Assembly (NCBI RefSeq): GCF_000384315.1
Contig: NZ_ARVW01000001.1
Location: 4,960,157 to 5,024,156 of the forward strand
Length of the DNA: 64,000 nt
Origin: Amycolatopsis nigrescens CSC17Ta-90
Lineage (GTDB): Bacteria; Actinomycetota; Actinomycetes; Mycobacteriales; Pseudonocardiaceae
Reading direction: 5' to 3'
Under the pieces are notes generated by a model, which worked only from the letters and a program-made list of their open reading frames with translations, made no database searches and was not told the origin of the DNA. The position numbers were made by a program, and so were the translations under genes. Below are positions 7,843 to 60,142 of this stretch, piece after piece; position 1 is the first letter of the stretch; every line of letters starts with the position of its first letter.

Positions 7843-8322
7843 GTGCCGTTCGCAGACAAAATTTCACCCGCCCCGCGCGAGGTCCGGCTGGCCGGCGCGT
7901 TCACCGCGCTGCCCGGTGTCACCGCAGTGGTACTGGCGGTGGTCTTGGTGGTCGAGGAGCTCGGCCGGGACGTTCCGTCGCCGGTCAACGTCTACGCCGA
8001 GGCCGGGGTCTACCTGGTGCTCGCGGCCGGCACCCTGGCCTGCGCGGTCGGCCTGCTGATGGGCAAGCTGTGGGCCCGTTCCCCGGCGGTCGTGGTGTCC
8101 CTGCTGGTGATCGGCGTTGGCTGGTACAGCACCGGGCCGTCGTCGCGGCCCAGTTTCGGCGTCCCGATCATCCTGCTCGGCCTGGTCGTGCTGGTGCTGC
8201 TGTTCCGCCGCCCGTCCAGGGCGTGGGCGCTCGGCATGGAGGACGGCGAGACCGAGGAGGAGGCCGCCGAGCGCGGTGGCGCCGCCGGCCGGCAGGCCCG
8301 CCGCGAGCGAGAGGGCAAATAG
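7843..8322 (+). CDS. Small integral membrane protein (Rv3217c-like)
   Basis: A 159-residue protein with four predicted transmembrane stretches (LPGVTAVVLAVVLVVEEL, VYLVLAAGTLACAVGLLM, SPAVVVSLLVIGVGWYST and GVPIILLGLVVLVLLF) and a charged cytoplasmic tail rich in Glu and Arg. No enzymatic motif is visible and the function is unknown. GTG 7843 has GGAAGG upstream. It is divergent from the lipid-kinase gene, with 283 bases between them in which no confident promoter was identified. The last codons Gly-Lys-stop are contributed by a family A palindrome. Confidence 0.78.
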   Translation: MPFADKISPAPREVRLAGAFTALPGVTAVVLAVVLVVEELGRDVPSPVNVYAEAGVYLVLAAGTLACAVGLLMGKLWARSPAVVVSLLVIGVGWYSTGPSSRPSFGVPIILLGLVVLVLLFRRPSRAWALGMEDGETEEEAAERGGAAGRQARREREGK

Positions 8323-8342
8323 CCGGCTTTTCGCCCTCTCGC
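8307..8342. terminator. Family A palindrome, copy A1 (contains a stop codon)
   Basis: The outer stem is specific to this copy: GCGAGAGGGC (8307-8316) with GCCCTCTCGC (8333-8342). The loop holds the family A core AAATAGCCGGCTTTT. GGC AAA TAG at 8314-8322 is the C-terminal Gly-Lys-stop of the membrane-protein gene. No T-run longer than four follows. Confidence 0.8.
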
Positions 8343-8355
8343 CGGTCAACGAAAG

Positions 8356-8377
8356 GGCAAATAGTCGGCTATTTGCC
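8356..8377. terminator. Family A palindrome, copy A2
   Basis: Perfect nine-base arms GGCAAATAG and CTATTTGCC around TCGG. It lies 13 bases after A1 in the same convergent junction. On the minus strand it supplies the Gly-Lys-stop end of the acetyltransferase gene (stop at 8369-8371). Confidence 0.8.
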
Positions 8378-8866
8378 GGTGTGCTGGGGGTGGTTCGCGA
8401 GTGCGCGCAGTGGCTCGTCGGTGAGGCGGTACATCGTCCACTCGTCCAACGGCACGGCGCCGAGGGCCTTGTAGAACTCGGTCGCCGGGTTCCAGTCCAG
8501 GACGGACCACTCCAGCCGCTGGTAGCCCAGTCGCACGCATTCGCCGGCCAGCTCGGCCAGTAGCGCCTTGCCGAGGCCGGAGCCGCGAAGCCCCGGGCGC
8601 ACGTAGAGGTCTTCCAGGTAGATCCCGTGCACGCCGCGCCAGGTGGAGAAGTTCAGGAACCACAGCGAGCAGCCGACGACCTCACCGTCCACTTCGGCCA
8701 CGTGCCCGTACAGCGCCGGTGCCTCGCCGAACAGCGCGGAGTGCAGCTGCGCGGCTTCGAGATGGCATTCCTGTGGTGCCCGCTCGAATTCGGCGAGCTC
8801 GTGCACTAGGCCGACGACCGCGTCCACATCGGACTCCCGGACGCGGCGGATTCTGCTGTCGGGCAA
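8369..8866 (-). CDS. GNAT N-acetyltransferase, spermidine/thialysine acetyltransferase-like
   Basis: A 165-residue acetyl-CoA-dependent acetyltransferase. The order IRRVRESDVDAVVGLVHELAEFE, VVGCSLWFLNFSTW, YLEDLYVRPGLRGSGLGKAL (motif A, acetyl-CoA pyrophosphate loop) and LEWSVLDWNPATEFYKALGA resembles the SAT/thialysine group; the true substrate is not determined. It starts at TTG 8864-8866 with AGGGAG upstream, ten bases after the phosphatase gene, so the two form an operon. It occupies the position of Rv3216. Its last two residues and stop come from palindrome A2. Confidence 0.87.
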   Translation of the reverse strand: MPDSRIRRVRESDVDAVVGLVHELAEFERAPQECHLEAAQLHSALFGEAPALYGHVAEVDGEVVGCSLWFLNFSTWRGVHGIYLEDLYVRPGLRGSGLGKALLAELAGECVRLGYQRLEWSVLDWNPATEFYKALGAVPLDEWTMYRLTDEPLRALANHPQHTGK

Positions 8867-8876
8867 GGAGAACTCC

Positions 8877-9467
8877 CTAGGAAGGTACGTTGAGGTGCTT
8901 GATCTGCGGGGTGCCGCGCTCGTCCCCGAGTTCGGTCGCCCCGGCCGGATCCAGTCCGAAGTGGACGCCGTAGACGGCGGGCAGGCCGAGCCAGCGGGTC
9001 ACCAGCACCCGGCTGAAGTGCCCGTGCCCGACCAGGATCACGTCGCGGTCGGCGAGCGTTTCGCGGACACCGGCGAGCAGCCGGTCCGCCCTGGCGGCCA
9101 CCTGCTCCGCGCTCTCTCCGCCGGGCGCCGGATGGGACCAGATGGTCCAGCCGGGCACGGTCTCGCGGATCTCCTCGGTGGTGATGCCCTCGTAGTCGCC
9201 GTAGTCCCACTCGGCCAGTTCTTCGGTCACCTCGTCCACCGCGAGTCCGGCCAGCTCGGCGGTGGCCAGCGCCCGCCGCCGGGGGCTGGCCAGCACCCGT
9301 GCCGGCGCGGTTACCGGCCCGTCGCGCAGCTTCTCGAGGGTCTTGCCGGTCGCCCGCGCCTGCTCCTCGCCGGTCGGGGTGAGCGGGATGTCCGTGCGCC
9401 CGGTGTGCCTGCCGTTGACCGACCACTCGGTCTGCCCGTGCCGGATGAGATAGAGCCGATGATCCAC
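8877..9467 (-). CDS. Histidine phosphatase / phosphoglycerate-mutase-like acid phosphatase (Gpm2-like)
   Basis: A 196-residue cofactor-independent-of-metal phosphatase of the branch-1 histidine phosphatase superfamily. The phospho-accepting His is in LYLIRHGQTEWS near residue 9; the other core residues are in LASPRRRALATAEL (Arg), EWDYGDYEGITTEEI (Glu) and ILVGHGHFSRVL (second His). Its length and position fit Rv3214 (Gpm2), which is an acid phosphatase rather than a true mutase. The start is GTG 9465-9467. It is the first gene of a two-gene operon with the acetyltransferase and is divergent from the hotdog-fold gene. Confidence 0.88.
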   Translation of the reverse strand: MDHRLYLIRHGQTEWSVNGRHTGRTDIPLTPTGEEQARATGKTLEKLRDGPVTAPARVLASPRRRALATAELAGLAVDEVTEELAEWDYGDYEGITTEEIRETVPGWTIWSHPAPGGESAEQVAARADRLLAGVRETLADRDVILVGHGHFSRVLVTRWLGLPAVYGVHFGLDPAGATELGDERGTPQIKHLNVPS

Positions 9468-9529
9468 GTTGCGAATATAACCTCCCGTCTGCTTAGCTAC
9501 TCGCGAGTAGGAAGTTGGGAGGGTGTGGG

Positions 9530-10000
9530 ATGGCCGATAGTCCGACGTTCGCGATGTGGCGCAGGCTGGCCGGGCGACCCGGTGGGCGGCGGCTGTTCTC
9601 GGCGGCGATGTGCCTGCGGGTGCCGTACTTCCGCACCGTGCTGCCGTCCGTGCGCGAGCTCCGGCCGGGGTACTGCGAGGTGACCGCGCCGAAGTGGTGG
9701 GGTGTGCACAACCACATCGGCACCTTCCACGCGATCGCCGCCTGCAACCTGGCCGAGATCGCGATGGGCATGCTGGCCGAGGCGACCGTGCCCGCCACGC
9801 ACCGCTGGCTGCCGAAGGGCATGACCGTCGAGTACACGGCCAAGGCGGAAACCGGGCTGCGGGCCGTCGCGGAACTGCCGGAGATTCCCGAGTTCGGTGC
9901 CGACGGCGTCGAACTCCCGGTGCCGTTCATCATTTCCGACACACACGGCAAACCCGTGGTAACCGGCACCATCGCGATCTGGGTGACGCGCAAGAAGTAG
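9530..10000 (+). CDS. DUF4442 hotdog-fold protein
   Basis: A 156-residue protein of the DUF4442 group (hotdog fold, related to acyl-CoA thioesterases). The core helix region WWGVHNHIGTFHAIAACNLAEIAMGMLAEA and the strand HRWLPKGMTVEYTAKAE are visible, and the C-terminus VVTGTIAIWVTRKK is typical of the last strand. No catalytic residue assignment is possible; a thioesterase or acyl-binding role is inference. ATG 9530 follows GGGAGGGTGTGGG. It is monocistronic, with cholesterol oxidase starting 112 bases downstream. Confidence 0.78.
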   Translation: MADSPTFAMWRRLAGRPGGRRLFSAAMCLRVPYFRTVLPSVRELRPGYCEVTAPKWWGVHNHIGTFHAIAACNLAEIAMGMLAEATVPATHRWLPKGMTVEYTAKAETGLRAVAELPEIPEFGADGVELPVPFIISDTHGKPVVTGTIAIWVTRKK

Positions 10001-10109
10001 CGAATGCGTGGTTGCGGGATGCCCCCAGGCGGGTGAAATAAACACCGTTTACCCTGGTGGCGTGAAAGGGGCTCGTGCTCGCCCTTGTCAGCCTGGAGAA
10101 TGGCGGTGA

Positions 10110-12355
<2,246 letters not shown>

Positions 12356-12730
12356 GAAGGCACCTTATCCAGGCTCATGAACGACTTCCCAAGCCGGACG
12401 GCCGTTTTGAGAAGTCCCCGTTGAGCTGGGAAAAGGTCCCAAATTTGTGAGTTCAACCGCACCGATGACTCGCAACAGGCACCGGGCCTGTCACACTGGA
12501 CGGACCGCCGCGTCCGCGGCCATCGCCTTACCAGGGGCGCCGATGGCCGATGGGACGCCTCGCCGACAGGCCGGCGCTACCGCGCTGGGCTGCCGTGCTG
12601 GAGGAGACCTGCCAGGCCGCGCCCCGCGACCTTGGCGCCCCCGCTCGCCGCAGCCCCGGGAGAAATCTTGACGTACGCAAGTATTGAAACCGAACCCTCG
12701 ACACCCTCGACACCGATGACAGGAAGCGGA
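12356..12730. other. Divergent intergenic region between the epimerase and malic enzyme genes
   Basis: 375 bases with no convincing gene. The malic enzyme frame stays open upstream to about 12632, so part of this span may be a longer N-terminus. A short GC stem (CCGCG/CGCGG near 12505-12525) is seen; no operator or riboswitch was recognised. Confidence 0.5.
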
Positions 12731-13924
12731 ATGAACGACCAGGTCAGCACCGACGCCCCCGCCCATACCAGGCCGGTGACCGACGAAGAGATCTTCGCCG
12801 GTCACCAGGGCGGGAAGTTGTCCGTCGCCGCGGCCAGGCCGATCAACGACCTGCGCGACCTGTCCATCGCCTACACCCCGGGGGTGGCCAAGGTCAGCCG
12901 CGCGATCGCCGAGGACGCCGCGCTGGCCAAGCCCTACACCTGGGCCGACCGGCTGGTCGTGGTGGTCAGCGACGGCACCGCGGTGCTCGGCCTCGGCGAC
13001 ATCGGCGCCAGCGCCTCGCTGCCGGTGATGGAGGGCAAGTCGGTGCTGTTCAAGACCTTCGGCGGGCTGGACTCCATCCCGCTGGTGCTGGACACCACCG
13101 ATGTGGACGAGATCGTGGAGACGCTGGTGCGGCTCCGGCCGTCGTTCGGCGCGGTCAACCTCGAGGACATCTCGGCTCCGCGCTGCTTCGAGCTCGAGGA
13201 CAAGCTGAAGGAAGCGCTGGACTGCCCGGTCATGCACGACGACCAGCACGGCACCGCGATCGTCACGCTGGCCGCGCTGCGCGGCGCGAACCTGGTGCTG
13301 GACCGGGATATCGCCGGTGAGCGGGTGGTCATCTCCGGGGCGGGCGCGGCCGGTGTCGCCTGCGCGAAGATCCTGCAGGCGGCCGGGGCCGCGGACGTCA
13401 CGATGCTGGATTCCAAGGGCATCATCCACCAGGGCCGGGACGGGCTGAACCCGATCAAGCAGCAGCTCGCGGCGACCACCAACGCGGCGGGCCTGCGCGG
13501 CGGGCTGGCCGAGGCGCTGCGCGGCGCGGACGTGTTCGTCGGGCTGTCCGGGGCGACCATCGACCCCACCCTGCTCGCGGACATGGCGGACGAGTCGATC
13601 GTGTTCGCACTGTCCAATCCGGACCCCGAGGTGCATCCGGAGGTGGCGGCCAAGTACGCGTCGATCGTGGCCACCGGGCGCAGCGACTTCCCGAACCAGA
13701 TCAACAACGTGCTCGCGTTCCCCGGCGTCTTCCGCGGCGCGCTGGACGCCGGTGCGCGGTCGATCACGGAGAACATGAAGCTGGCCGCCGCCGAGGCGAT
13801 CGTCTCGGTGGCCGCGGATGATCTCGGCCCGGACCGGATCGTGCCGAGCGCACTCGACCCGCGGGTCGGCCCCGAGGTCGCGGCCGCGGTCGCCAAGGCC
13901 GCCACCGCCGACGGCGTCGCCTGA
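12731..13924 (+). CDS. NAD(P)-dependent malic enzyme
   Basis: A 397-residue oxidative decarboxylase converting malate to pyruvate and carbon dioxide. Features in order: LSIAYTPGVAKVSRAIAED near residue 55 (Tyr active-site region), TWADRLVVVVSDGTAVLGLGDIGA, LPVMEGKSVLFKTFGGLDSIP (catalytic Lys), INLED-type metal site FGAVNLEDISAPRCFELE, MHDDQHGTAIVTLAAL, then the Rossmann domain VVISGAGAAGVACAKIL, and SNPDPEVHPE plus FPNQINNVLAFPGVFRGALD. The short, single-domain bacterial form without a phosphotransacetylase extension. The ATG 12731 has AGGAAGCGG upstream; an ATG at 12716 and longer forms are possible. Confidence 0.92.
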   Translation: MNDQVSTDAPAHTRPVTDEEIFAGHQGGKLSVAAARPINDLRDLSIAYTPGVAKVSRAIAEDAALAKPYTWADRLVVVVSDGTAVLGLGDIGASASLPVMEGKSVLFKTFGGLDSIPLVLDTTDVDEIVETLVRLRPSFGAVNLEDISAPRCFELEDKLKEALDCPVMHDDQHGTAIVTLAALRGANLVLDRDIAGERVVISGAGAAGVACAKILQAAGAADVTMLDSKGIIHQGRDGLNPIKQQLAATTNAAGLRGGLAEALRGADVFVGLSGATIDPTLLADMADESIVFALSNPDPEVHPEVAAKYASIVATGRSDFPNQINNVLAFPGVFRGALDAGARSITENMKLAAAEAIVSVAADDLGPDRIVPSALDPRVGPEVAAAVAKAATADGVA

Positions 13925-13936
13925 CCTTCACCGCGT

Positions 13937-13993
13937 ACGAGCCCAACGTGACGTTTGGCCAATAGATCGAGCCGAACGTCACGTTGGGCTCGT
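13937..13993. terminator. Family B palindrome, copy B2
   Basis: Arms of 22-23 bases (ACGAGCCCAACGTGACGTT... and its complement ending CACGTTGGGCTCGT) with one mismatch, around a loop that includes CAATAGATCGA. It starts 13 bases after the malic enzyme stop and is followed ten bases later by family A copy A3. Confidence 0.8.
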
Positions 13994-14002
13994 TTCGGTT
14001 GG

Positions 14003-14024
14003 GGCAAAAAGCCGGCTATTTGCC
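14003..14024. terminator. Family A palindrome, copy A3
   Basis: Arms GGCAAAAAG and CTATTTGCC around CCGG, one mismatch pair. On the minus strand the right arm gives the Gly-Lys-stop of the BpsA-family gene (stop at 14016-14018). Confidence 0.78.
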
Positions 14025-15467
14025 GAGGATGGCTGCGATGCGGTGGCGGGGCAGGTCGATCAGCCGGTGCGCGGACAGGCCGGGGGCGTGCCGCTCGATG
14101 TGGGCGCGGGCGTCGTTCTTGGTCATCGCGCCGTCCGACGAGCTGATCAGCGCCTCGCGCCAGACGTTGCCCAGCTTGCCGTGCGCCTTGGTGAGCAGCG
14201 GGTTCGCTTCGCCGACGGGTACCGCGTCGGCGACGACCACGGCGTGTGTGTTGTCCGGTGTGCTGCGGAGTAGCCGAAGTGCGTATTTCTCGCGAAGCAG
14301 GCCGGTGAGTTCGGCCTGCGCCCGAGCGTCCGCCAGGTCGGGATGCGAGTTCGGCAGCAGCACGGCGACCCTGGGGGCGTTCGCCGCGAGCAGGACCCGC
14401 AGCAGCCAAGGCCCCGGATCGGCGGTCAGGTCGATCGCCACCGGACCCTTCGTCGAAATCGGTGCCGACCAGTCCGCGGCCCTGGTTTCCGCGCCCGTAC
14501 CGGCGATTTCGCGCAGGCTGTCCAGCAGGGTCGCCGGAGTACCGCCGGCTTCCACCGACTGCGGCCCGTGCGTGTAGATCCCGGTCTTGCCCTTTTTGGT
14601 CTTGCGAGCTTGTGCGGTCGGCTGGCAGACGTACAGATCGGCCGCGCTGCCGATCGCCTGCGCGCCGAAGTACCGGTGGAAGTCCGGCAGAATGGCTTCG
14701 AAGGTGAGGCCGAGCAGGGCGAGCTCGCGCTGCGCCTGCGCGCCCAGCGCGGGATGTCGGGGGCTGTACCCGTAGGCGAGCAGCAGCCTGCCCTCGCTCA
14801 CCGGATCGGCCAGCGCCTGCACCCCGCGCGACGCGAACAGCCCGATGCCCTCCGGGGTGTACGGCGGATCGCTGAACACCAACTCGGCGCCGGCGAGCAC
14901 GGCGGGCGGCAGACCGACCCGCAGGTCCGCGTGCAGGGTGGTGACCGCGCCGCCGGAAAGCCGGTCGACGTACTCCAGCACGCGCTCGTCCAGGTCGACC
15001 ACGGTCAGCCGCGCGTCCGGCCGCAGTGCGTGCACCGCCAGTGAAGTGAGGTCGTGGTCGCCGAGGAACAGCGTCCTGGCCCTGGCGAGGTCGTAGTTCC
15101 CGGCCAGCCACAAGGCCCGGCGCAGCACCGTTTCCGGGGTCGCCTGCACGTGGTCGAGCGCGGCCAGCGGGGGCGGCACCCGCTCGATCAGCCCGCTGAT
15201 GGTGGCCAGCAGTTCCGAGTCGGTTTCCGAAGCGTCGGATTCCTGGTACCCGGCATAGTTCGCGACGGCAGTCGGCCTGAGGCGCACCGACCGCTGGTCG
15301 CGTTCCAGATCGTCGCCGAGCGCCTCGAGCAGCTCCTCCACGGTCCGCCGCGGGGCCGCGGTGGCGCGCACCAGCTCGTCGAACGGCTGCCAGCCGCGGC
15401 AGAGCAGGGTGATGGCCGATCGCAGCCGCTGGTGGTGGATGCCGAAGACCTCGTCGACTGGTTTCAT
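14016..15467 (-). CDS. BpsA-family (bis-aminopropyl spermidine synthase-like) protein with extra C-terminal domain
   Basis: A 483-residue protein. Residues about 1-75 look like a winged-helix domain (FDELVRATAAPRRTVEELLEAL). Residues 110-285 are the aminopropyltransferase-like Rossmann domain of the archaeal BpsA family (former DUF43): LFLGDHDLTSLA (135-144), LTVVDLDERVLEYVD (154-168) and the SDPPYTPEG motif (199-207). Archaeal enzymes make branched polyamines and carry GDDD where this protein has GDHD. Residues about 300-483 are an additional region with no family I recognise, containing GPVAIDLTADPGPWLLRVLLA and LLPNSHPDLADARAQ. The substrate is unknown. The ATG at 15465-15467 was chosen over an upstream in-frame start. 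Confidence 0.72.
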   Translation of the reverse strand: MKPVDEVFGIHHQRLRSAITLLCRGWQPFDELVRATAAPRRTVEELLEALGDDLERDQRSVRLRPTAVANYAGYQESDASETDSELLATISGLIERVPPPLAALDHVQATPETVLRRALWLAGNYDLARARTLFLGDHDLTSLAVHALRPDARLTVVDLDERVLEYVDRLSGGAVTTLHADLRVGLPPAVLAGAELVFSDPPYTPEGIGLFASRGVQALADPVSEGRLLLAYGYSPRHPALGAQAQRELALLGLTFEAILPDFHRYFGAQAIGSAADLYVCQPTAQARKTKKGKTGIYTHGPQSVEAGGTPATLLDSLREIAGTGAETRAADWSAPISTKGPVAIDLTADPGPWLLRVLLAANAPRVAVLLPNSHPDLADARAQAELTGLLREKYALRLLRSTPDNTHAVVVADAVPVGEANPLLTKAHGKLGNVWREALISSSDGAMTKNDARAHIERHAPGLSAHRLIDLPRHRIAAILGK

Positions 15468-15550
15468 CGCGGCCAGCCTAAACACTGGAAATCCGTGCCA
15501 ATGTCGGGGATGTGGGCTACGGTTTTTTGATCCGAGATGGGGAGTGACGC

Positions 15551-16651
15551 GTGGCAATCGAGTTCCAGAGCGTGACCAAGCGCTACCCGGACGGCACGGT
15601 CGCGGTCGACGACCTGAGCCTGACCGTGCAGGACGGCACGATCACCGTGTTCGTCGGCCCGTCCGGCTGCGGCAAGACGACCTCGCTCCGGATGATCAAC
15701 CGGATGGTAGAGCCGACCGCGGGCACCGTGCTGCTGGACGGCAAGGACATCCGGGAATCCGATCCGGCCCTGCTGCGCCGCGGGATCGGCTACGTGATCC
15801 AGCACGCCGGCCTGTTTCCACATAGGACCGTGCTGAACAACGTGGCCACCGTGCCGCTGCTTTCCGGCTGGGACAAGACCAAGGCGCGCAAGCGTGCCGC
15901 GGAGCTGCTGGAGACGGTCGGCCTGCCGGCCGGGCTCGGCAAGCGTTACCCGGCACAGCTTTCCGGCGGCCAGCAGCAGCGGGTCGGGGTGGCCAGGGCG
16001 CTCGCCGCGGACTCGCCGGTGCTGCTGATGGACGAGCCGTTCTCCGCGGTGGACCCGATCGTCCGCGAGGAGCTGCAGGACGAGCTGCTTCGGCTGCAGT
16101 CCCAGCTGGGCAAGACGATCGTGTTCGTCACGCACGACATCGACGAGGCGGTGCGGCTCGGGGACAAGATCGCGGTGATGCGGGTGGGTGGGAAGCTCGC
16201 CCAGTACGGCACCCCGTCAGAGGTGCTGCGCAACCCGGTGGACGATTTCGTCGCCTCCTTCGTCGGCAAGGACCGCGGCTACCGCGGCCTGTCCTTCCTT
16301 TCCGCGGAAGGAGTGGAGGTCGGCGAGGTCACCAGGATCGAGGTCGGCGCCACGGTCTCGGGACCGACCCAGGGCTGGCTGCTCGCGGTCGCGCCGACCG
16401 GCGAGCCGCGCGGCTGGCTGCCACCGGGGTCCACTGTGGACGATAAGATCACGGAAACCGACCTGCTCGCCGGCGGCTCGCTCTACCAGGAGGGCGCGCC
16501 GATCCGCGGCGCGCTGGACGCGGCACTGTCCTCACCGGCCAGCCTCGGCGTGGTGGTCGACGGCGAGGGCAAGGTGACCGGCGTGGTCACCGCACGGCAG
16601 GTGCTCGACGTGATCGAGCGGCAGCCGCGGGCATCGGCCGGCCATGAGTGA
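15551..16651 (+). CDS. Osmoprotectant (glycine betaine/choline-type) ABC transporter ATP-binding protein, OpuCA/ProV type
   Basis: A 366-residue ATPase energising compatible-solute uptake. Walker A GPSGCGKTTSLRMI near residue 37, Q-loop IQHAGLFPHRTV, signature LSGGQQQRVGVARAL, Walker B VLLMDEPFSAVDP and switch His in FVTHDIDEAVRLGD. The C-terminal 100 residues contain a partial CBS-like region (GVVVDGEGKVTGVVTARQVLDVI), as in osmosensing family members. GTG 15551 follows GGGGAGTGACGC. It is the first gene of a four-gene operon with overlapping junctions, divergent from the BpsA-family gene. Confidence 0.92.
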   Translation: MAIEFQSVTKRYPDGTVAVDDLSLTVQDGTITVFVGPSGCGKTTSLRMINRMVEPTAGTVLLDGKDIRESDPALLRRGIGYVIQHAGLFPHRTVLNNVATVPLLSGWDKTKARKRAAELLETVGLPAGLGKRYPAQLSGGQQQRVGVARALAADSPVLLMDEPFSAVDPIVREELQDELLRLQSQLGKTIVFVTHDIDEAVRLGDKIAVMRVGGKLAQYGTPSEVLRNPVDDFVASFVGKDRGYRGLSFLSAEGVEVGEVTRIEVGATVSGPTQGWLLAVAPTGEPRGWLPPGSTVDDKITETDLLAGGSLYQEGAPIRGALDAALSSPASLGVVVDGEGKVTGVVTARQVLDVIERQPRASAGHE

Positions 16652-20771: not shown

Positions 20772-20778
20772 CTTCGTC

Positions 20779-20827
20779 CGTGAAGGGCACCTTGCCTACC
20801 TTCAAGGTAGGGAAGGTGCCCTTCACG
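20779..20827. terminator. Family D palindrome, copy D1 (nested stems)
   Basis: Outer arms CGTGAAGGGCACCTT and AAGGTGCCCTTCACG, inner stem CCTACCTT with AAGGTAGG. Seven bases after the subtilase stop, between converging genes. Confidence 0.8.
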
Positions 20828-20838
20828 ACGTGTGCGGT

Positions 20839-23013: not shown

Positions 23014-23014
23014 G

Positions 23015-24931: not shown

Positions 24932-25017
24932 GCCGCCCCGGCGGTTCGGCGTTAAACAGCCAGTCTTATAACCAAAAGGGCGTTGCGTTCACCGAGTTCG
25001 CCAGGCTGATCGACGGG

Positions 25018-25061
25018 TCGTGAGTGGAAAGTGTTGCCGGAGCAACACTTTCCACTCACGA
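25018..25061. terminator. Family C palindrome, copy C1, after kgd
   Basis: Perfect 20-bp stem built on CGTGAGTGGAAAGTGTTGC and its complement with a four-base loop, ending three bases before the kgd stop codon. Closely related to C2 at 52528-52573. Confidence 0.82.
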
Positions 25062-25064
25062 GCG

Positions 25065-42847: not shown

Positions 42848-43588
42848 GTGGCCGACGGCGGCGGGAAACCTCGGCTGGACAGCGTCTGGCTGTCCGGCGA
42901 CGACGAGACCCGGCCGCGGATCGGCAGAAACGCCGGCCTCACCCGTGCCCAGCTGGTCACGGCGGCGATCCGGATGCTGGACACCGACGGGCTTTCCGCG
43001 CTGTCCATGCGGCGGCTCGCGGTCGAGCTCGGGGCCGCGCCGATGTCGCTGTACTGGTACGTGCCCACCAAGAGCGCGCTGTTGGAGTACGCGCTCGACG
43101 AGGCGCTCGGCGGCCTTCAGGTGGAGCGGGCACAGGACGGGGACTGGGGGCGGTGCTGCGAGAAGTTCGCGCACGATCTGCGCCGGGTGCTGCGGTCCCG
43201 GCCCTGGATGACCCAGCTGATCGGCACCTACGCGCTGATCGGGCCGAACGCGCGGCGGCTGTCCGAGGCGCTGCTCACCACGGTCGAGGCCGGCGGCTTC
43301 CGCCCGCCGCACGCCTACCGGGCGCTCAGCACCCTGCTCAACTACGTGGTCGGGTTCGCCGCGGACGAGGTCAAGTGGCTGGAGAAACTGCGCAACGCCG
43401 GGCTCGACGAGGAAGCGTTGTACGCCCAGTGGGTTCCGCCGTTCCTGGACGTCATCGGCGACCGCTACCCGAAGCTGCGGGCGAACCTGGTGGCGAGCCG
43501 CTCCGCCGACTGGGACGACCAGTTCTCCTTCGGCCTCGGCTGCATGGTCGACGGCCTCCGCGCCAGCGCCGCCCACAACGGCAAATAG
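42848..43588 (+). CDS. TetR-family repressor with TetR-type C-terminal domain
   Basis: A 246-residue regulator. The helix-turn-helix LTRAQLVTAAIRMLDTDGLSALSMRRLAVELGAAPMSLYWYVPTKSALL lies at residues 31-77, and the longer C-terminal domain (FAHDLRRVLRSRPWMTQLIGTYALIGPNARRLSEALL) is of the TetR_C class. It is co-transcribed with the MFS pump and probably controls it; no clear palindrome was found immediately before the pump. GTG 42848 is four bases after the MFS stop. Its final Gly-Lys-stop lies in palindrome A4. Confidence 0.85.
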   Translation: MADGGGKPRLDSVWLSGDDETRPRIGRNAGLTRAQLVTAAIRMLDTDGLSALSMRRLAVELGAAPMSLYWYVPTKSALLEYALDEALGGLQVERAQDGDWGRCCEKFAHDLRRVLRSRPWMTQLIGTYALIGPNARRLSEALLTTVEAGGFRPPHAYRALSTLLNYVVGFAADEVKWLEKLRNAGLDEEALYAQWVPPFLDVIGDRYPKLRANLVASRSADWDDQFSFGLGCMVDGLRASAAHNGK

Positions 43589-43601
43589 CCGACTTTTTGC
43601 C
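43580..43601. terminator. Family A palindrome, copy A4
   Basis: Arms GGCAAATAG and CTTTTTGCC around CCGA; one mismatch in the right arm. GGC AAA TAG (43580-43588) encodes the Gly-Lys-stop of the TetR gene. Family B copy B3 follows 13 bases later. Confidence 0.8.
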
Positions 43602-43614
43602 CGGTACGAAACGA

Positions 43615-43663
43615 GCCCAACGTGACGTTTGGCCAATAGAACGAGCCAAACGTCACGTTGGGC
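43615..43663. terminator. Family B palindrome, copy B3
   Basis: Perfect 19-bp arms GCCCAACGTGACGTTTGGC and GCCAAACGTCACGTTGGGC around the loop CAATAGAACGA. Almost identical, loop included, to the reverse complement of B1. It ends nine bases before the ald stop. Confidence 0.83.
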
Positions 43664-46802: not shown

Positions 46803-46805
46803 GAA

Positions 46806-46860
46806 GTCCCTCAAGGCCACCTTTGTTACCTTCAAGGTTGCAAAGGTGGCCTTGAGGGAC
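46806..46860. terminator. Family D palindrome, copy D3 (nested stems)
   Basis: Outer arms GTCCCTCAAGGCCACCTTTG and CAAAGGTGGCCTTGAGGGAC (20 bp, perfect), inner stem ACCTT with AAGGT. Convergent junction between the LLM and metalloprotease genes. Confidence 0.82.
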
Positions 46861-46871
46861 AGTGGGGAAGG

Positions 46872-49468: not shown

Positions 49469-49524
49469 CGTTCAGGCTCCGGGCTTGCCGTCCAGCATGC
49501 GGGAAGCATACACTCCGCACTAGA

Positions 49525-49543: not shown

Positions 49544-49566
49544 GTTGAACCTGCAGGGAGCTAGCG

Positions 49567-52526: not shown

Positions 52527-52527
52527 G

Positions 52528-52573
52528 GTCGTGAGTGAAAAGTGTTGTTCCAGCAACACTTTTCACTCACGAC
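52528..52573. terminator. Family C palindrome, copy C2, after metX
   Basis: Perfect 20-bp arms GTCGTGAGTGAAAAGTGTTG and CAACACTTTTCACTCACGAC, loop TTCCAG, one base after the metX stop. Shares its arm sequence with C1 apart from one position. Confidence 0.83.
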
Positions 52574-52608
52574 GCCAGGACCTCAATGGCCATTCCAGTG
52601 AATCGCCT

Positions 52609-53121
52609 TCAATCCTTCAGCGCTTCGGAAATCCATTCAGTCACCGGCAGATCGCGTTCCAGGCATTCGGTGGACAGCCGGATCGTCCAACGCAGCGCCT
52701 GCAGCACCAGGCTGGCGACCTCCTCCGGGGCGGCGCTGGCCAGCGCGATCTCGACCTGCTCCTCGGCCGCCTCGGTGTTGCCGTGCACCTCGGCCAGCAG
52801 CGTGCGCACGGCGGTCCGCACCGGCGGGTCGGCCTGGTCGATCGAGACCTCTTCGCCGTCCTCGTCGAACACCTGGACCTTCACCGGGGCGCTGCCGCCG
52901 TCGCCGAGTGTCGCCACCATCGCGCTGCACTCGCCGAACAGCATCAGCATCAGCTCGCGGGTCTCCGCCGACCGGTCCTCGTGCTCGGTGGCGGACGGCG
53001 CGACCTGGTCGAGTGCTTCCTCGTCCTCGCCGAGTTGCATCGCGACGAGCGCGCGCTGGGCCTTCTCCACCAGCCGCCGCTCGTCCTTGCTCCTGTCGGG
53101 CTCCACTCGCCTATCAAACAC
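52609..53121 (-). CDS. Hypothetical acidic cytoplasmic protein (170 residues)
   Basis: Not recognised. The protein is rich in Glu and Ala, with no signal peptide or membrane segment. Residues 10-75 look helical (DRSKDERRLVEKAQRALVAMQLGEDEEALDQV); a middle segment GSAPVKVQVFDEDGEEVSIDQADPPVRTAVRTLLAEVHG may be a strand-helix unit; the C-terminus (VEIALASAAPEEVASLVLQALRWTIRLSTECLERDLPVTEWI) is helical. It starts at GTG 53119-53121, or at an in-frame GTG 15 bases downstream that has a better AGGCGA site. It lies between converging metX and the TetR gene. Confidence 0.6.
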   Translation of the reverse strand: MFDRRVEPDRSKDERRLVEKAQRALVAMQLGEDEEALDQVAPSATEHEDRSAETRELMLMLFGECSAMVATLGDGGSAPVKVQVFDEDGEEVSIDQADPPVRTAVRTLLAEVHGNTEAAEEQVEIALASAAPEEVASLVLQALRWTIRLSTECLERDLPVTEWISEALKD

Positions 53122-53166
53122 CAGCCGATGGGGGTTTGGGCTAGAGGCAGTGACAGGTGATTGTGA

Positions 53167-53748
53167 CTACCTCGCCGCGCGCAGCGCGCCGAGCGCGAGA
53201 TGGCCCAGCAGGACGGCCAGCTCGGCGTCACCGAGATAGCGGTTGTGCGGGGTTGAATTGATCAATCCGAACACGGCGTGTGCCGAAGATCGGGCGTGCG
53301 TCTCGTCCACTCCGGGGACCGCGTCCCGGATCGCCTGCACCCACACCTCCACGTACCGGCGCTGCAGCGCGCGCACCTGTTTCCGGTCCGCGTCGGTGAG
53401 ATTGGCCAGGTTGCGCTCCTGCACGGTGATCAGTGCCGGGTGTTCGAGCGCGAAGTCGACGTGGAAGCGCACCAGCTCGGTGAGCGTGTCGTCCGGGTCG
53501 CCGGCTTCGGCCGCGCGGGTGGTGCCGCCGTCGAGCAGGTACTGGCTGATCGTGCTCAGCATCTCGCCGAGCATCGCGTCCTTGCTCTTGAAGTGCCGGT
53601 ACAGCGCGGGACCGGAGATGCCCACCGCGGCGCCGATGTCGTCGATGCCGACGCCGTGGAACCCGTGTCGGGCGAACAGTTCGGCCGCCGCGGCGAGGAT
53701 CTGCTCGCGGCGGCTGGCCTTGTCGCCTTGCACCAGGGGGGTCGGCAC
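53167..53748 (-). CDS. TetR-family repressor of the acyl-CoA carboxylase operon (BkaR-like)
   Basis: A 193-residue regulator with helix-turn-helix SRREQILAAAAELFARHGFHGVGIDDIGAAVGISGPALYRHFKSKDAML and a helical ligand domain (LVRFHVDFALEHPALITVQERNLANLTDADRKQVRALQRRYVEVWVQAIRDAVPG). The start is taken as GTG 53746-53748; an open extension to 53856 would cross the operator and is unlikely. A palindrome, GTTAGCG-N2-CGCTAAC, lies 22 bases upstream of its start and recurs before the accD-type operon at 54743 and 54771, which suggests autoregulation and control of that operon. Rv2506 (BkaR) has the same kind of neighbour in mycobacteria. Confidence 0.82.
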   Translation of the reverse strand: MPTPLVQGDKASRREQILAAAAELFARHGFHGVGIDDIGAAVGISGPALYRHFKSKDAMLGEMLSTISQYLLDGGTTRAAEAGDPDDTLTELVRFHVDFALEHPALITVQERNLANLTDADRKQVRALQRRYVEVWVQAIRDAVPGVDETHARSSAHAVFGLINSTPHNRYLGDAELAVLLGHLALGALRAAR

Positions 53749-53769
53749 CGCGCCATAGTAACCAGCGAC

Positions 53770-53785
53770 GTTAGCGAGCGCTAAC
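53770..53785. promoter_or_regulatory. TetR operator, copy 1 (before the tetR gene)
   Basis: GTTAGCG and CGCTAAC, seven-base arms with centre AG. Copies 2 and 3 lie before the carboxylase operon. Same sequence at two divergent targets of one adjacent regulator is good evidence for an operator. Confidence 0.75.
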
Positions 53786-53900
53786 CTCCGGTGCGACTGA
53801 TGGGCTGAGCCAGACGGGTTACCTGCGAAGACGCCCCTTCTCTGTGAGTAAACCACCTGGTATTGATATTTCTCGTTGGGGGCTCACGAAGGAGTGACCT

Positions 53901-54710
53901 ATGGTCGCGCATGTCCAGAAAACGACCCAGTCCATGATCCGAGCGTGCGTGGTCGTGTTCGCCGCGACGCTCGCCTTGTTCGGCTTCACCATCCCTGCTT
54001 CCGCCGCGGCGACGAACTACGTCGCACTCGGCGACTCCTACTCCTCCGGTACCGGTGCCGGCTCCTACGGCGACTCCGGTGCCTGCAAGCGCAGTGCCAA
54101 CTCCTACGCCCAGCTATGGGCGAACGCGCATTCCGCCAGCCCGTTCCAGTTCCTGGCCTGCTCCGGGGCGCGCACCGGGGACGTGCTGAACCAGCTCAAC
54201 TCGGTCACCGGCGGCGCCACGCTGGTCACCGTTTCGGTCGGCGGCAACGACGCCGGCTTCGCCGATGTGATGACCGACTGCACGCTCGGCTCCGACCAGT
54301 CCTGCGTCGACCGGGTCAACGAAGCCAAGACCTACGCGAACAACACGCTGCCCGGCCTGCTGGACGGCGTGTACGCGAAGATCAAGCAGAAGGCGCCGGG
54401 CGCCAAGATCGTGGTGTTCGGCTACCCGCGCTTCTACCAGATCGGCGGCTCGTGCAACGCGGGCCTCAGCGACACCAAGCGGTCCGCGATCAACTCCGGC
54501 GCGGACACCCTGGCCTCGGTCACCTCGGGGCGCGCGAAGGCAGCCGGTGCCAGCTTCGCGGATGTTCGCGGGCCGTTTACCGGACATGAGATCTGCTCCG
54601 GCGACTGGTGGCTGAAGAGCCTCAGCTGGCCGGTCGACGAGTCCTATCACCCCAACGTGAACGGGCAGAAGCTCGGCTACCTGCCGGTGCTCAACCAACT
54701 GGCCGGGTGA
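53901..54710 (+). CDS. Secreted SGNH/GDSL hydrolase (lipase/esterase)
   Basis: A 269-residue exported hydrolase. Signal peptide IRACVVVFAATLALFGFTIPASAAA. Block I YVALGDSYSSGTGAG with the nucleophile Ser, block III VSVGGNDAGFADV, and block V SYHPNVNGQKLGYLPVL with the catalytic His are all seen; six cysteines near conserved positions of Streptomyces SGNH lipases (CKRSANSYA, LACSGARTG, MTDCTLGSDQSCV, GGSCNAG, HEICSGDWW) suggest three disulfides. ATG 53901. It lies between the TetR gene and the carboxylase operon but probably has its own promoter; the TetR operators flank it on both sides. Confidence 0.9.
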   Translation: MVAHVQKTTQSMIRACVVVFAATLALFGFTIPASAAATNYVALGDSYSSGTGAGSYGDSGACKRSANSYAQLWANAHSASPFQFLACSGARTGDVLNQLNSVTGGATLVTVSVGGNDAGFADVMTDCTLGSDQSCVDRVNEAKTYANNTLPGLLDGVYAKIKQKAPGAKIVVFGYPRFYQIGGSCNAGLSDTKRSAINSGADTLASVTSGRAKAAGASFADVRGPFTGHEICSGDWWLKSLSWPVDESYHPNVNGQKLGYLPVLNQLAG

Positions 54711-54742
54711 CCTGGTTCACCCGATCCCCGCTCGACAGTCAG

Positions 54743-54758
54743 GTTAGCGGCCGCTAAC
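54743..54758. promoter_or_regulatory. TetR operator, copy 2 (before the carboxylase operon)
   Basis: GTTAGCGGCCGCTAAC, a perfect 16-bp palindrome. It has the same arms as copy 1. Confidence 0.75.
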
Positions 54759-54770
54759 ATCCTCATCGGA

Positions 54771-54786
54771 GTTAACGGCCGCTAAC
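54771..54786. promoter_or_regulatory. TetR operator, copy 3
   Basis: GTTAACGGCCGCTAAC, one difference from copy 2, with centres 28 bases apart. It ends 22 bases before the start of the carboxyltransferase gene, so binding would block the promoter or early transcription. Confidence 0.7.
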
Positions 54787-54808
54787 CCTGACTTTTTGCG
54801 CGGGAGCC

Positions 54809-56422
54809 ATGGACACGCCGGTTATACAGAGTTCCGCGGACCCGCGGAGTGAGCAGTATTCGCGTAACACCACGGCGCACGCCGAGCTGACCGAGGACCT
54901 GCGCAAGCGGCTCTCGCTCGCCAGGCTGGGCGGCCCGGAGAAATCCCGCACCCGACATGTGGAACGGGGCAAGCTGCTGCCCCGCGACCGGGTGGACGCG
55001 CTGCTCGACCCCGGCTCGCCGTTCCTGGAGCTGTCCCCGCTGGCCGCGACCGGCCTCTACGACGACGAGGCCCCGTCGGCCGGCATCATCACCGGCATCG
55101 GCCGGGTGTCCGGGCGCGAGTGCGTGATCGTCGCCAACGACGCGACGGTCAAGGGCGGCACCTACTACCCGATGACGGTGAAGAAACACCTGCGCGCGCA
55201 GGAAGTCGCGCTGCACAACAACCTTCCGTGCATCTACCTGGTCGACTCCGGCGGCGCCTTCCTGCCCCGGCAGGACGAGGTCTTCCCGGACCGCGAGCAC
55301 TTCGGCCGGATCTTCTACAACCAGGCGAACATGTCCGCGCGCGGCATCCCGCAGATCGCCGCGGTGCTCGGCTCCTGCACCGCCGGCGGCGCCTACGTCC
55401 CGGCGATGAGCGACGAGGCGGTGATCGTGCGGAACCAGGGCACGATCTTCCTCGGCGGCCCGCCGCTGGTGAAGGCCGCCACCGGCGAGGTGGTCACGGC
55501 CGAGGAGCTCGGCGGCGGCGACGTGCACGCCAGGCAGTCCGGGGTCACCGACCACCTGGCCAACGACGACGCGCACGCGCTGCGCATCGTCCGCTCCATC
55601 GTGTCCACCCTCGGCCCGCGCACGCCACGGCCGTGGGACCTGCTCCCGGTCGAGCAGCCCGCGGTGGACGAGGCCCAGCTCTACGGGGTGGTGCCGGCGG
55701 ATTCGCGCACCCCGTACGACGTGCGCGAGGTGATCGCCAGGATCACCGACGGCAGCCGGTTCGCCGAGTTCAAGAAGGAGTACGGCGCCACCCTGGTCAC
55801 CGGGTTCGCCAGGATCCACGGCCATCCGGTCGGCATCGTCGCGAACAACGGCGTGCTCTTCGCCGAGTCCGCGATGAAGGGCGCGCACTTCATCGAGCTG
55901 TGCGACAAGCGCTCGATCCCGTTGCTGTTCCTGCAGAACATCACCGGGTTCATGGTCGGCAGGGCGTACGAGGCGGGCGGAATCGCCAAGCACGGCGCGA
56001 AGATGGTCACCGCGGTGGCCTGTGCCAGGGTGCCCAAGCTGACCGTGATCATCGGCGGTTCGTTCGGCGCCGGGAACTACTCGATGTGCGGCCGGGCGTA
56101 CTCGCCGCGTTTCCTCTGGATGTGGCCCAACGCCCGGATCTCGGTGATGGGCGGCGAGCAGGCCGCGTCGGTGCTTTCCACGGTGCGCCGCGACGCGATC
56201 GAGGGCCGCGGCGCGGAATGGCCCGCCGATGAGGAAGAGGCTTTCAAACAGCCCATCCGCGACCAGTACGAGCATCAGGGCAGCCCGTACTACTCGACCG
56301 CACGGCTGTGGGACGACGGGGTGATCGACCCGGCGGACACCCGCACGGTGGTCGGGCTCGCGCTGTCGGCGGCGGCCAACGCGCCACTCGAACCTGTCGG
56401 CTACGGCGTCTTCCGGATGTGA
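54809..56422 (+). CDS. Acyl-CoA carboxylase beta subunit (methylcrotonoyl-CoA carboxylase type, AccD1)
   Basis: A 537-residue carboxyltransferase transferring carboxyl from biotin to an acyl-CoA. N-terminal crotonase-like half with [65 protein letters not shown] and [20 protein letters not shown] (acyl-CoA oxyanion hole); C-terminal half with [34 protein letters not shown] and [16 protein letters not shown] (biotin oxyanion hole). The 537-residue length and these motifs fit methylcrotonoyl-CoA or geranyl-CoA carboxylase rather than propionyl-CoA carboxylase. ATG 54809. Next gene is the alpha subunit two bases after its stop. Confidence 0.9.
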
Positions 56423-56424
56423 GC

Positions 56425-58413
56425 ATGTTTCCTACAGTTCTGGTCGCGAACCGCGGGGAGATCGCGGTCCGGGTGATCCGCACGCTGCGCGCAATGGGCA
56501 TCCGGTCGGTCGCGGTGTACAGCGACGCGGACGCCGAGGCCGCGCACGTGCTGGAGGCGCATACCGCCGTCCGGATCGGCCCGGCGGAGGCGGCCCGCAG
56601 CTATCTGTCCATCCCGGCGATCATCCAGGCCGCGAAGGACACCGGCGCCACCGCCGTGCACCCGGGATACGGCTTCCTTTCGGAGAACGTCGAGTTCGCA
56701 CGGGCCTGCGAGGCGGCCGGGATCGCGTTCATCGGGCCGCCGGTGGCCGCGATCGACGCGATGGGCGACAAGATCCGGGCCAAGGCCACGGTTTCCGCCG
56801 CGGGTGTGCCGGTGGTCCCCGGTAAGTCCGATGTGGACATTCCGGAGGGCGGGTTCGCGACAGCGGCCGAAGAAGTGGGCTATCCGTTGCTGCTCAAGCC
56901 CTCCGCGGGCGGTGGCGGCAAGGGCATGCGGCTGGTCACCGAAGCTGGGGAGCTGGCCGCCGCGGTGGAGTCCGCGCGGCGCGAGGCGAAGGGCGCTTTC
57001 GGCGACGACACCCTGCTGATGGAGCGGTTCGTCGGCACGCCGAGGCATATCGAGATCCAGGTGCTGGCGGACGGGCACGGCAACGTGATCCACCTCGGCG
57101 AGCGGGAGTGCAGCCTGCAGCGGCGGCACCAGAAGATCGTCGAAGAGGCGCCGTCGGTGCTGCTGGACGAGCCGACCAGGGTCAGGATGGGCGCGGCGGC
57201 GGTGGAGGCGGCGCGTTCGGTCGGCTACGTCGGTGCCGGGACCGTCGAGTTCATCGTGTCCGCGAAGGCGCCGGACGAGTTCTTCTTCATGGAGATGAAC
57301 ACCCGCCTGCAGGTGGAGCACCCGGTTACCGAGCTGGTCACCGGCCTCGACCTGGTCGAGTGGCAGGTGAAGGTCGCCGCCGGGCAGCGGCTGACCGTGC
57401 GGCAGGAGGACGTCCGGCTGACCGGGCACGCGGTGGAGGCCAGGGTTTACGCCGAGGACCCGGCGCGCGGCTTCATCCCGACCGGCGGCACCGTGCTGGC
57501 CGTGCACGAACCGGACGGGCCCGGCGTGCGGGTGGACTCCTGGCTGCGGGACGGCACCGTGGTCGGCTCGAACTACGACCCGATGCTGGCCAAGGTGATC
57601 GCATGGGGGCCGGACCGGGAAGCCGCACTGCACCGGCTCGACCTGGCACTGGCGGAAACCGCGGTGCTCGGCCTGACCACCAACGTGGCGTTTCTGCGCG
57701 CACTGCTGGCCGACGAGGAGGTCCGGGCCGGGCGGCTGGACACCGAGCTGGTCGAGCGCAGGCTCGCCACGTTGGTTTCCGCTTCGATCCCGGCGGAGTT
57801 CTTCGTCGCGGCCGCGGCGGATCGCCTGCTTTCGCTGTACCCGAAGGGGCCCTTTGTGGATCCCTGGGAGGTGCCGAACGGCTGGCGGCTCGGCGCGACC
57901 GGCGGGGTGACCTTCCGGCTCGGCTCGGGTGACGTGGAGTCCGTGGTCCGGATCGAGGGTGAGCCCGCGTCCGCGATGGCCACTGTGGACGGTCGGGAGC
58001 CGGTGCCGATGTCCGCCAGGCTCGCCGGGCCAGACCTGCTGGAACTGCGGTACGGCAAGGACTTCCGGCGCTACCGCCGGTCGTCCGCGCCGGAGGGCAC
58101 GGTCTGGCTGGCTTCCGGCGGGCAGTGCGTCGCGCTCGGCGAGCGGGCGAACCTGCTGGCCACGCACGGTGATTCGGTGGCCACCGGCCCGGTGACCAGC
58201 CCGATGCCGGGCACCGTGCTGGTGGTCAAGGCGGAGGTCGGGGAGACGGTCGCGGCCGGCGCCCCGCTGCTCGTCGTGGAGGCGATGAAGATGGAGCACA
58301 CCATCACCGCACCGGTGGCCGGTGTGCTCACCGAACTGCACGTCCAGGCGGGCCAACAGGTCGAGCTGGACGAGGCCCTTGCCGTGGTGACCCCGCACGA
58401 GGAGAAGACATGA
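56425..58413 (+). CDS. Acyl-CoA carboxylase alpha subunit (biotin carboxylase and BCCP fused, AccA1)
   Basis: A 662-residue biotin-dependent subunit. Biotin carboxylase domain: [37 protein letters not shown]-grasp [61 protein letters not shown] middle BT region of about 150 residues links to a C-terminal BCCP domain with [20 protein letters not shown]; the biotin Lys is in EAMKM about 38 residues from the end. ATG 56425 ([11 protein letters not shown]) is chosen, two bases past the beta-subunit stop; the longer frame is not needed. Overlaps the dehydrogenase start by four bases. Confidence 0.92.
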
Positions 58414-59564
58414 TCGACTTCCAGCTGGACGAAGAGTACGAAGCCCTGCGCAAGACCGTGCGGGACTTCGCGCAGGCCGAGGTGGCGCCGGTGATCGGCG
58501 GCTTCTACGAGCGCGAGGAGTTCCCGTACGAGCTGGTCGCCAAGATGGGCCGGATGGGCCTGTTCGGCCTGCCGTTCCCGGAGGAGTTCGGCGGCATGGG
58601 CGGGGACTACTTCGCGCTGTGCCTTGCGCTGGAGGAGCTGGCCAGGGTCGACTCGTCGGTGGCGATCACGCTGGAGGCCGGTGTCTCCCTCGGCGCGATG
58701 CCGATCCACCGGTTCGGCACCCAGGAGCAGAAGGAGCGCTGGCTGCCGTCGTTGTGCTCGGGCGAGGCGCTGGGCGCGTTCGGGCTGACCGAGCCGGGCG
58801 GCGGCTCGGACGCCGGCGCAACCCGCACGGTGGGCAGGCTGGACAACGGCGAGTGGGTGCTCAACGGCAGCAAGTCGTTCATCACCAACTCCGGCACCGA
58901 CATCACCACGCTGGTCACCGCGACCGCGGTCACCAGCGTGCAGGAGAACGGGCGCAAGGAGATCTCGGCGATCATGGTGCCGTCGGGCACTCCCGGCTTC
59001 ACGGTGGCGCCCAAGTACTCCAAGGTCGGCTGGAACGCCTCCGACACCCACGAACTGTCCTTCGTGGACTGCCGGGTGCCCGCGGAGAACCTGCTCGGCG
59101 AGCGCGGTCGCGGCTACGCCCAGTTCCTGTCCATTTTGGACGAAGGCAGGGTGGCGATCGCCGCGGTCGGCGTCGGGCTCGCCCAGGGCTGCGTGGACGA
59201 GTGCCTGCGCTACGTCGGCGAGCGGGAGGCGTTCGGCCACCGGATCGGCGAGTACCAGGCGATCCAGTTTAAGATCGCCGACATGGAGGTGCGCGCGCAC
59301 ACCGCGCGTCTGGCCTACTACGCGGCCGCGGCGAAGATGCTGCACGGCGAGCCGTTCAAGAAGGAGGCGTCGATCGCGAAGCTGGTGTCGTCCAACGCGG
59401 CTATGGACAACGCGCGGGACGCGACCCAGGTCTTCGGCGGCTACGGCTTCATGAACGAGTTCCCGGTCGGCCGCTTCTACCGGGACGCCAAGATCCTGGA
59501 GATCGGCGAGGGCACCAGCGAGATCCAGCGCATGCTGATCGCCCGCTCCCTCGGCCTCAAGTAA
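58410..59564 (+). CDS. Acyl-CoA dehydrogenase of the carboxylase operon (FadE19-like)
   Basis: A 384-residue FAD enzyme. Seen: [95 protein letters not shown] [41 protein letters not shown] and [37 protein letters not shown]. The catalytic Glu is at the EGT position of short-chain and branched 2-methyl type enzymes; true isovaleryl-CoA dehydrogenases have a small residue there. Its substrate is therefore probably not isovaleryl-CoA. The ATG overlaps the alpha-subunit stop. The three genes form one operon. Confidence 0.9.
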
Positions 59565-59571
59565 CTTCGGC

Positions 59572-59586
59572 TGCCCTTCACGACGT
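59572..59586. repeat. Solo arm resembling family D (relic)
   Basis: TGCCCTTCACGACGT is identical over 15 bases to the right arm and flank of copy D1 (20817-20831), just after the dehydrogenase stop. No complementary left arm is present. It may be a decayed family D element. Confidence 0.4.
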
Positions 59587-59607
59587 TCAGAGTATTCTCA
59601 CGATCTT

Positions 59608-60129
59608 GTGAGTGAACTGGTGATCCGGCCCGGCGGCCCGGACGACTTCCGCACCCTGATGGCTTTCTTCGATGACGCGATCCTGTGGCTGACAGCGCGC
59701 GGCAGCGCCGGGCAGTGGGGCACCGAGCCGTGGACCGGCAACCCCAAGCGCGAGGAGCGGGTGCGCGGTATGGCCGCCCACGAGGGTCTGCTGATCGCCG
59801 AGGTCGGCGGCGAGCCCGCCGGTGCCACCATCCACACCGAGCAGTGCCCCGCGCACGTTCCCCCGGCAGGCGAACGCGAGCTGTACATCGACCTGCTGAT
59901 CACCTCGCGCGCGTACGCCGGCCATGGGGTGGGCGGCGCACTGATCGAACGCGGACGCCAGGAGGCCCGCGAGCGCGGTATCGCGCTGCTGCGGGTGGAC
60001 TGCTGGGCCGGTGGCGACGGTGACCTGGTGCGTTACTACGAGGGTCAGGGTTTCGTGCCGACGGTCCAGTTCGATGTGCGCGGCTGGATCGGTCAGGTCT
60101 TCGAGCAGCGCGTCCCAAAGGGCAAATAG
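59608..60129 (+). CDS. GNAT-family N-acetyltransferase
   Basis: A 173-residue acetyltransferase: IRPGGPDDFRTLMAFFDDAI, LLIAEVGGEPAGATIH, ELYIDLLITSRAYAGHGVGGALIERG (acetyl-CoA loop) and LLRVDCWAGGDGDLVRYYEGQGFVPT, a pattern seen in aminoglycoside-like and small-molecule acetyltransferases. Substrate unknown. GTG 59608. Its C-terminal Gly-Lys-stop comes from palindrome A5. Confidence 0.85.
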   Translation: MSELVIRPGGPDDFRTLMAFFDDAILWLTARGSAGQWGTEPWTGNPKREERVRGMAAHEGLLIAEVGGEPAGATIHTEQCPAHVPPAGERELYIDLLITSRAYAGHGVGGALIERGRQEARERGIALLRVDCWAGGDGDLVRYYEGQGFVPTVQFDVRGWIGQVFEQRVPKGK

Positions 60130-60142
60130 CCGGCTATTTGCC
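60121..60142. terminator. Family A palindrome, copy A5
   Basis: Perfect nine-base arms GGCAAATAG and CTATTTGCC around CCGG. GGC AAA TAG (60121-60129) is the Gly-Lys-stop of the GNAT gene. Located at a tandem junction. Confidence 0.83.

Follow-up and report, generated by a model that had tools for sequence, protein, structure and literature searches.

The window examined here is a 64,000-nucleotide stretch of Amycolatopsis nigrescens CSC17Ta-90 (bases 4,960,157-5,024,156 of a 9.11-Mb single-contig genome), in which five genes end in a stop codon supplied by copies of a short palindrome, here called family A. We consider it probable, at about two chances in three, that family A is a lineage-private family of the repetitive extragenic palindrome (REP) or REPIN type, situated behind gene ends, whose overlaps with genes have been kept almost only in the phase in which the TAG of the element stops the reading frame. 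In each of the five window copies, the TAG belongs to the word GGCAAATAG and is read in frame as GGC AAA TAG, so that the open reading frame (ORF) ends in Gly-Lys-stop. This bears out the in-frame stops described in an earlier note on this DNA. The copies and the features around them are as follows.

8314-8335, plus strand: family A half-unit GGCAAATAGCCGGCTTTTCGCC; its TAG at 8320-8322 stops ORF 7573-8322(+)
8336-8355, unstranded: doublet linker of 20 nt between the half-units at 8314 and 8356
8356-8377, unstranded: the doublet's other half-unit, which has TAG on each arm (GGCAAATAGTCGGCTATTTGCC); the TAG at 8371-8369 (minus) stops GNAT ORF 8369-8866(-)
14003-14024, minus strand: single half-unit with the minus-strand reading GGCAAATAGCCGGCTTTTTGCC; its TAG at 14018-14016 stops ORF 14016-15557(-)
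43580-43601, plus strand: single half-unit GGCAAATAGCCGACTTTTTGCC; its TAG at 43586-43588 stops TetR ORF 42848-43588(+)
60121-60142, unstranded: single half-unit with TAG on both arms; the TAG at 60127-60129 stops GNAT ORF 59608-60129(+), and the other arm faces no gene end found
7573-8322, plus strand: membrane-protein ORF with a provisional start, ending REREGK-stop; sister orthologues end otherwise, for example REREDD or EREGHEED
8369-8866, minus strand: GNAT ORF ending PQHTGK-stop; sister orthologues end mostly near ...ALAAQA

The earlier note had counted five copies sharing both arms. The number stands (the copy at 8314-8335 lies inside the 8307-8342 that it quoted), but both exact arms are present in only two of the five, at 8356 and 60121; in the copies at 8314, 14003 and 43580 the gene-distal arm reads CTTTTCGCC, CTTTTTGCC or GGCAAAAAG. 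Since the half-units at 8314 and 8356 are the halves of one doublet, the window contains four loci with five gene ends. The proposed gene identities were partly confirmed, with Pfam matches for the TetR protein (42848-43588) and the two GNAT proteins (8369-8866 and 59608-60129). The membrane protein at 7573-8322 had one Pfam match, below its cut-off, and a 'BpsA-family' assignment was left unconfirmed; for the gene that ends at 14016, the 194 C-terminal aa tested matched no Pfam family.

Across the genome, GGCAAATAG was found 185 times (91 + 94) compared to 8 times (3 + 5) for the reversed word, which upholds the proposal of a homologous repeated element. In all but 4 of the 185 copies the 3' arm continues the hairpin, most commonly as CCGGCTTTTTGCC (50), CCGACTTTTTGCC (34) or CCGGCTTTTCGCC (28), and the resulting half-unit of 22 bp has the form GGCAAATAG-CCGR-CTTTT(T/C)GCC. 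A pattern search of the genome's own DNA chosen by the TAG word returned 166 half-units in 119 clusters, with 75 of the arm type TAG/AAG, 71 AAG/TAG, 19 TAG/TAG and 1 AAG/AAG; over the whole genome, the pattern used found 5 hairpins in which both arms have AAG. Singles account for 72 of the 119 clusters, and 9 of these 72 are accompanied by an inverted partner that is degenerate (null 5 of 500). The other 47 clusters are doublets, 41 of them with an outward TAG on both sides and linkers of 12 nt (26 cases), 11 nt (6), 20-22 nt (6) and 2, 9 and 13 nt (1 each). The linker sequence is variable with a tendency to C-TTT...AAG-G, and the mean pairwise identity is 0.47 among the 26 of 12 nt. In 30 of the 39 doublets scored, the two halves have the same loop letter, CCGG or CCGA (Fisher p = 0.001). 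The inner arms often mismatch each other, an observation that argues against strict selection for a single perfect long stem. Family A thus has what is expected of a REP or REPIN family, namely a high-copy palindrome in the range of 20-40 bp lying mainly outside genes (22 bp, n = 166) and inverted doublets whose ends are conserved while the spacer varies (outward TAG in 41 of 119 clusters).

The linkers fall into classes of 11-13 and 20-22 nt, with none of 14-19 nt and approximately one DNA turn between the classes. Along the chromosome, 23, 22, 30, 29, 21, 17, 22, 6, 11 and 4 copies were counted per Mb; the region at 7-9.1 Mb is poor in family A (6, 11 and 4 copies per Mb bin versus 17-30 elsewhere). 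Two linker classes near 12 and 21 nt and uneven copies (4-30 per Mb) are what would favor a protein-binding or DNA-level site (uptake, segregation, nucleoid word) that merely gathers at gene ends. In Neisseria and Pasteurellaceae, uptake signals are described in parts of PMC1852404 as conserved words whose inverted pairs form terminator-like hairpins behind genes, and family A resembles them in that inverted pairs of one conserved word would form such hairpins behind genes. However, its 185 copies are well below the 1,000 or more of the uptake words, it is private to one genome among those searched, and few single arms lie away from gene ends. We consider a DNA-level site to be very improbable.

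Gene ends were scored by an in-house codon model for which the window served as training set and which read only codons ahead of the arm; an arm was called gene-facing when a scored gene end lay within 150 nt. A gene end was faced by 134 of 168 outer TAG arms compared to 43 of 70 outer AAG arms (p = 0.005), and two converging gene ends flank 66 of the 119 clusters. Of the 134 gene-facing TAG arms, 50 provide the stop through the TAG of the element, 82 stand downstream of a native stop and 2 are read through; for the 43 gene-facing AAG arms, 40 are behind a native stop and 3 are read through. Of the 52 ORFs that run into an outer TAG arm, 50 are in the phase in which the TAG stops them (binomial versus 1/3, p = 8e-22); the proportion is 50 of 55 when the three AAG read-throughs are added (p = 7e-19). 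All read-through cases stay in the counts (AAG at +19, +525 and +763; TAG at +44 and +442, the last being weakly scored). Most native stops ahead of TAG arms lie within 30 nt of the word's end (73 of 82), and their offsets over these 82 arms show no significant phase preference (23/23/36, p = 0.13); that no stop ends 1-8 nt ahead of the word's end is no evidence, because GGCAAATAG has no other stop. Since cluster-arm scoring halts at the arm, it favors neither outcome; it is preferred to an alternative copy-based count, in which 53 of the 185 copies were in phase and 1 was read through.

The proportion of 50 in 52 agrees with the earlier note that the in-frame stop exceeds chance, and a coincidence of frame in the window is rejected by it, leaving that explanation with practically no probability. 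The five of five seen in the window proved untypical, as genome-wide only 50 of the 134 gene-facing TAG arms supply the stop. The majority, the 82 behind a native stop without significant phase preference, show that the element persists without coupling; stop coupling is optional for family A, and a coupled stop and terminator was not supported as the maintained role. The suggestion that a symmetric element serves genes from both sides is in keeping with the clusters between converging gene ends, but with TAG on both arms in only 19 of 166 half-units, the symmetry is mostly that of the doublet. On the simplest account, the phase in gene overlaps would be strict because copies in the two read-through phases have been lost, and a phase filter of this kind on a one-stop arm would produce Gly-Lys tails without need for a coupled function. 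One could instead suppose a functional coupling, in which the overlapping stop and hairpin tie ribosome release to transcript release and Gly-Lys-TAG itself is selected. That 50 gene ends use the element TAG would fit this, as would the stalling of ribosomes that is reported for Escherichia coli REPs within 15 nt of the stop codon in parts of PMC12306157. Stop overlap is also commoner in family A than in a palindrome family of the sister genome G045, where 600 kb contained 31 outer-arm copies of GTCCGTGAAGGG, 19 of them facing a scored gene end, and the element stop was used in 0 of 19. Because so many TAG arms and nearly all gene-facing AAG arms (40 of 43) lie behind native stops, we regard functional coupling as improbable.

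We compared the gene ends with those of sister species. The word GGCAAATAG occurs in 23 same-genus genomes at a background of 1-7 copies each, and the full hairpin pattern gave 5 isolated matches in unrelated taxa within a genome-contig collection that possibly does not include the genome itself. Family A is private to this genome among the genomes searched, and a widespread family is ruled out. At the junction of the membrane-protein and GNAT genes (8322/8369), where both own C-termini are Gly-Lys, 0 of 57 sister C-termini (29 species) end in this way. Both genes are present in 28 sisters: in 16 of them the gap is at most 15 nt and no stem exceeds 8, 10 carry a hairpin of at least 11 with another sequence, and in the remaining 2 the gap is wider and the stems are 9 and 10. 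For nine element-stopped genes, none of the 12 orthologues in G045 and a second sister genome, G021, ends in Gly-Lys, which, together with the junction, supports the earlier claim that Gly-Lys comes from the element. A native-stop case was seen at 2389631 of the own genome, where a gene ends GGC AAG TAG directly before GGCAAATAG and the G045 orthologue also ends in Gly-Lys. In a general hairpin scan, which takes stems of at least 11 and so misses the 9-bp half-units, gene ends were overlapped in 4 of 23 cases for G021, 2 of 29 for G045 and 0 of 19 for the window.

The same comparisons bear on whether the overlaps arose by stop capture and not by insertion, in which case a copy would arrive behind a native stop that is later lost, with the in-phase TAG serving as a backup. 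Element-stopped proteins are extended relative to their sisters by -2 to +5 aa with a median of +2.5 (12 pairs, 9 genes), and ends with a native stop are of equal length in 11 of 20 rows (the rest -2 to +8, plus one mis-paired row at -219), both of which would be expected under capture. Some TAG-stopped ends are unextended (-2, -1, 0), and at the distance of these sisters the ancestral stop is not visible. Stop capture appears rather unlikely, and it is a route within the preferred explanation more than a contradiction of it.

Under that explanation, family A consists of lineage-private, high-copy, short non-coding palindromes of the REP/REPIN type, with half-units often paired head-outward around a short variable linker and able, in principle, to fold into one long hairpin. 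They lie directly downstream of genes, for the most part where two genes converge, and would probably serve transcripts from both sides as an end hairpin, terminating them and/or protecting their 3' ends. In one frame the outer arm presents TAG, and the other two are open. Overlap with a reading frame may arise when a copy lands on a gene tail or when the native stop upstream is lost, and the overlapping copies would survive almost only in the TAG-stopping phase, with Gly-Lys as the resulting C-terminus.

One doublet folded as RNA gave a 26-bp stem at -51.2 kcal/mol (z -9.5), and the window half-units fold far more weakly, at -7.8 to -16.5 kcal/mol (z -1.2 to -3.7). By position and predicted fold, a stable hairpin behind the gene is what an intrinsic terminator would have, and terminator activity of family A may be expected on this basis. 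Rfam had 0 matches in the window. A long hairpin flanked by A and T runs at 3756-3809 of the window is nearer to a classical intrinsic terminator.

The manner in which copies spread was also examined. PF01797, the Y1 transposase family of the REP-associated tyrosine transposases (RAYTs), had 0 matches in the own genome and 0 in 13 same-genus genomes, while the control found it in 5 of 14 known genomes; a RAYT-driven REP is ruled out by its absence from the own genome. Target-site duplication was rejected as well, as direct repeats of at least 3 flank 1 of 119 clusters versus 1.36 expected, and the mean over these clusters is 0.61 versus 0.52, with 40 of 500 shuffles reaching 0.61.

Several of our observations weigh against the preferred explanation. 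With neither target-site duplication nor PF01797, the presumed mobility of family A is without a mechanism. The gene calls come from an in-house codon-score script and not from annotation, 34 of the 168 outer TAG arms have no scored gene end in front, and out-of-phase read-through occurs at 5 of 177 gene-facing arms (2 TAG, 3 AAG). Three of the five window half-units barely fold better than shuffled sequences (z -1.2, -1.7 and -1.8). There is no canonical U-tail, the 3' arm being T-rich (CTTTT(T/C)GCCC) without a long T tail, and a terminator consensus scan of 8000-14500 gave 3 sites versus 2.3 expected, two of them on family A copies.

Among known systems, GTAG/CGTC-tagged REPs, as described in parts of PMC3733652, are close in several respects, being short high-copy palindromes at gene ends that occur as singles and as dimers with variable spacers of similar length; GTAG REPs also give TAG stops to flanking ORFs. 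Family A differs in that its TAG belongs to the 5' arm of the stem in a GGC...GCC palindrome, with no PF01797 in this genome and no end tag: the GTAG/CGTC tetranucleotide is absent from the ends of the aligned half-units, which read GGC...GCC, and positions -3 to -1 favor A, C/A and C/G. REPINs with a RAYT, as outlined in parts of PMC3116915, share two conserved inverted ends, a less conserved spacer, the potential to form one hairpin and a sequence population within the genome. Unlike them, family A is shorter, has half-units alone in 72 of 119 clusters and has no RAYT found. It resembles the stop-proximal REPs of E. coli (parts of PMC12306157) in placing a hairpin at most 15 nt from the stop, but its arm itself holds the stop at 50 gene ends. 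As it lacks both an end tag and a transposase, family A functions like a REP without being classed as one. TAG-stop supply by REPs and REPIN architecture are already known, and family A is a RAYT-less variant; nothing on family A was found among the top-ranked open papers on this genus or on such coupling.

Repeated, sequence-conserved terminators are known from an actinobacterium, as in the TRIT family of Mycobacterium tuberculosis. TRIT terminators are mentioned in PMC3526491. In the present genome, a second palindrome word, CCCAACGTGACGTT, has 79 copies compared to 0-1 in 79 other same-genus genomes, and the G045 word GGGCCCTTCACGGAC has 382 copies in G045, 589 in the genome G001, 12 in the present genome and 0-26 in the others of the 80 genomes. 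Palindromes of the form CCCAACGTGACGTT...AACGTCACGTTGGG were noted in the window at 1977-2028, 13936-13993 and 43614-43663, and more gene-end palindromes at 20778-20827, 25015-25063, 46805-46860, 52527-52573 and 62839-62866; the GTCGTGAGTG and GTGAAGG motifs of these latter palindromes resemble those of sister species. At least 4 private or near-private words were seen in the genus (two here, one common to G045 and G001, and others). From the few words tested, lineage-wise palindrome amplification looks general in the genus, and the supply of a stop is so far special to family A. We tentatively suggest, as an idea with less than even odds, that the transcript-end palindromes of the genus are RAYT-free gene-end parasites, each amplified in its own lineage until it numbers one hundred to several hundred copies, at junctions where the sisters have either no element or a different one; family A, carrying a ready-made stop, could then land on a coding tail and leave a working gene.

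The genome-wide count shows a repeated palindrome that enters many unrelated proteins, with only the stop-supplying phase left, and the data suggest that, in one actinomycete-like genus, gene-end hairpins are replaced rapidly from lineage to lineage. Two questions are thereby made testable, namely how short repeats spread without a RAYT, and whether hairpins overlapping a stop codon affect translation and transcript ends.

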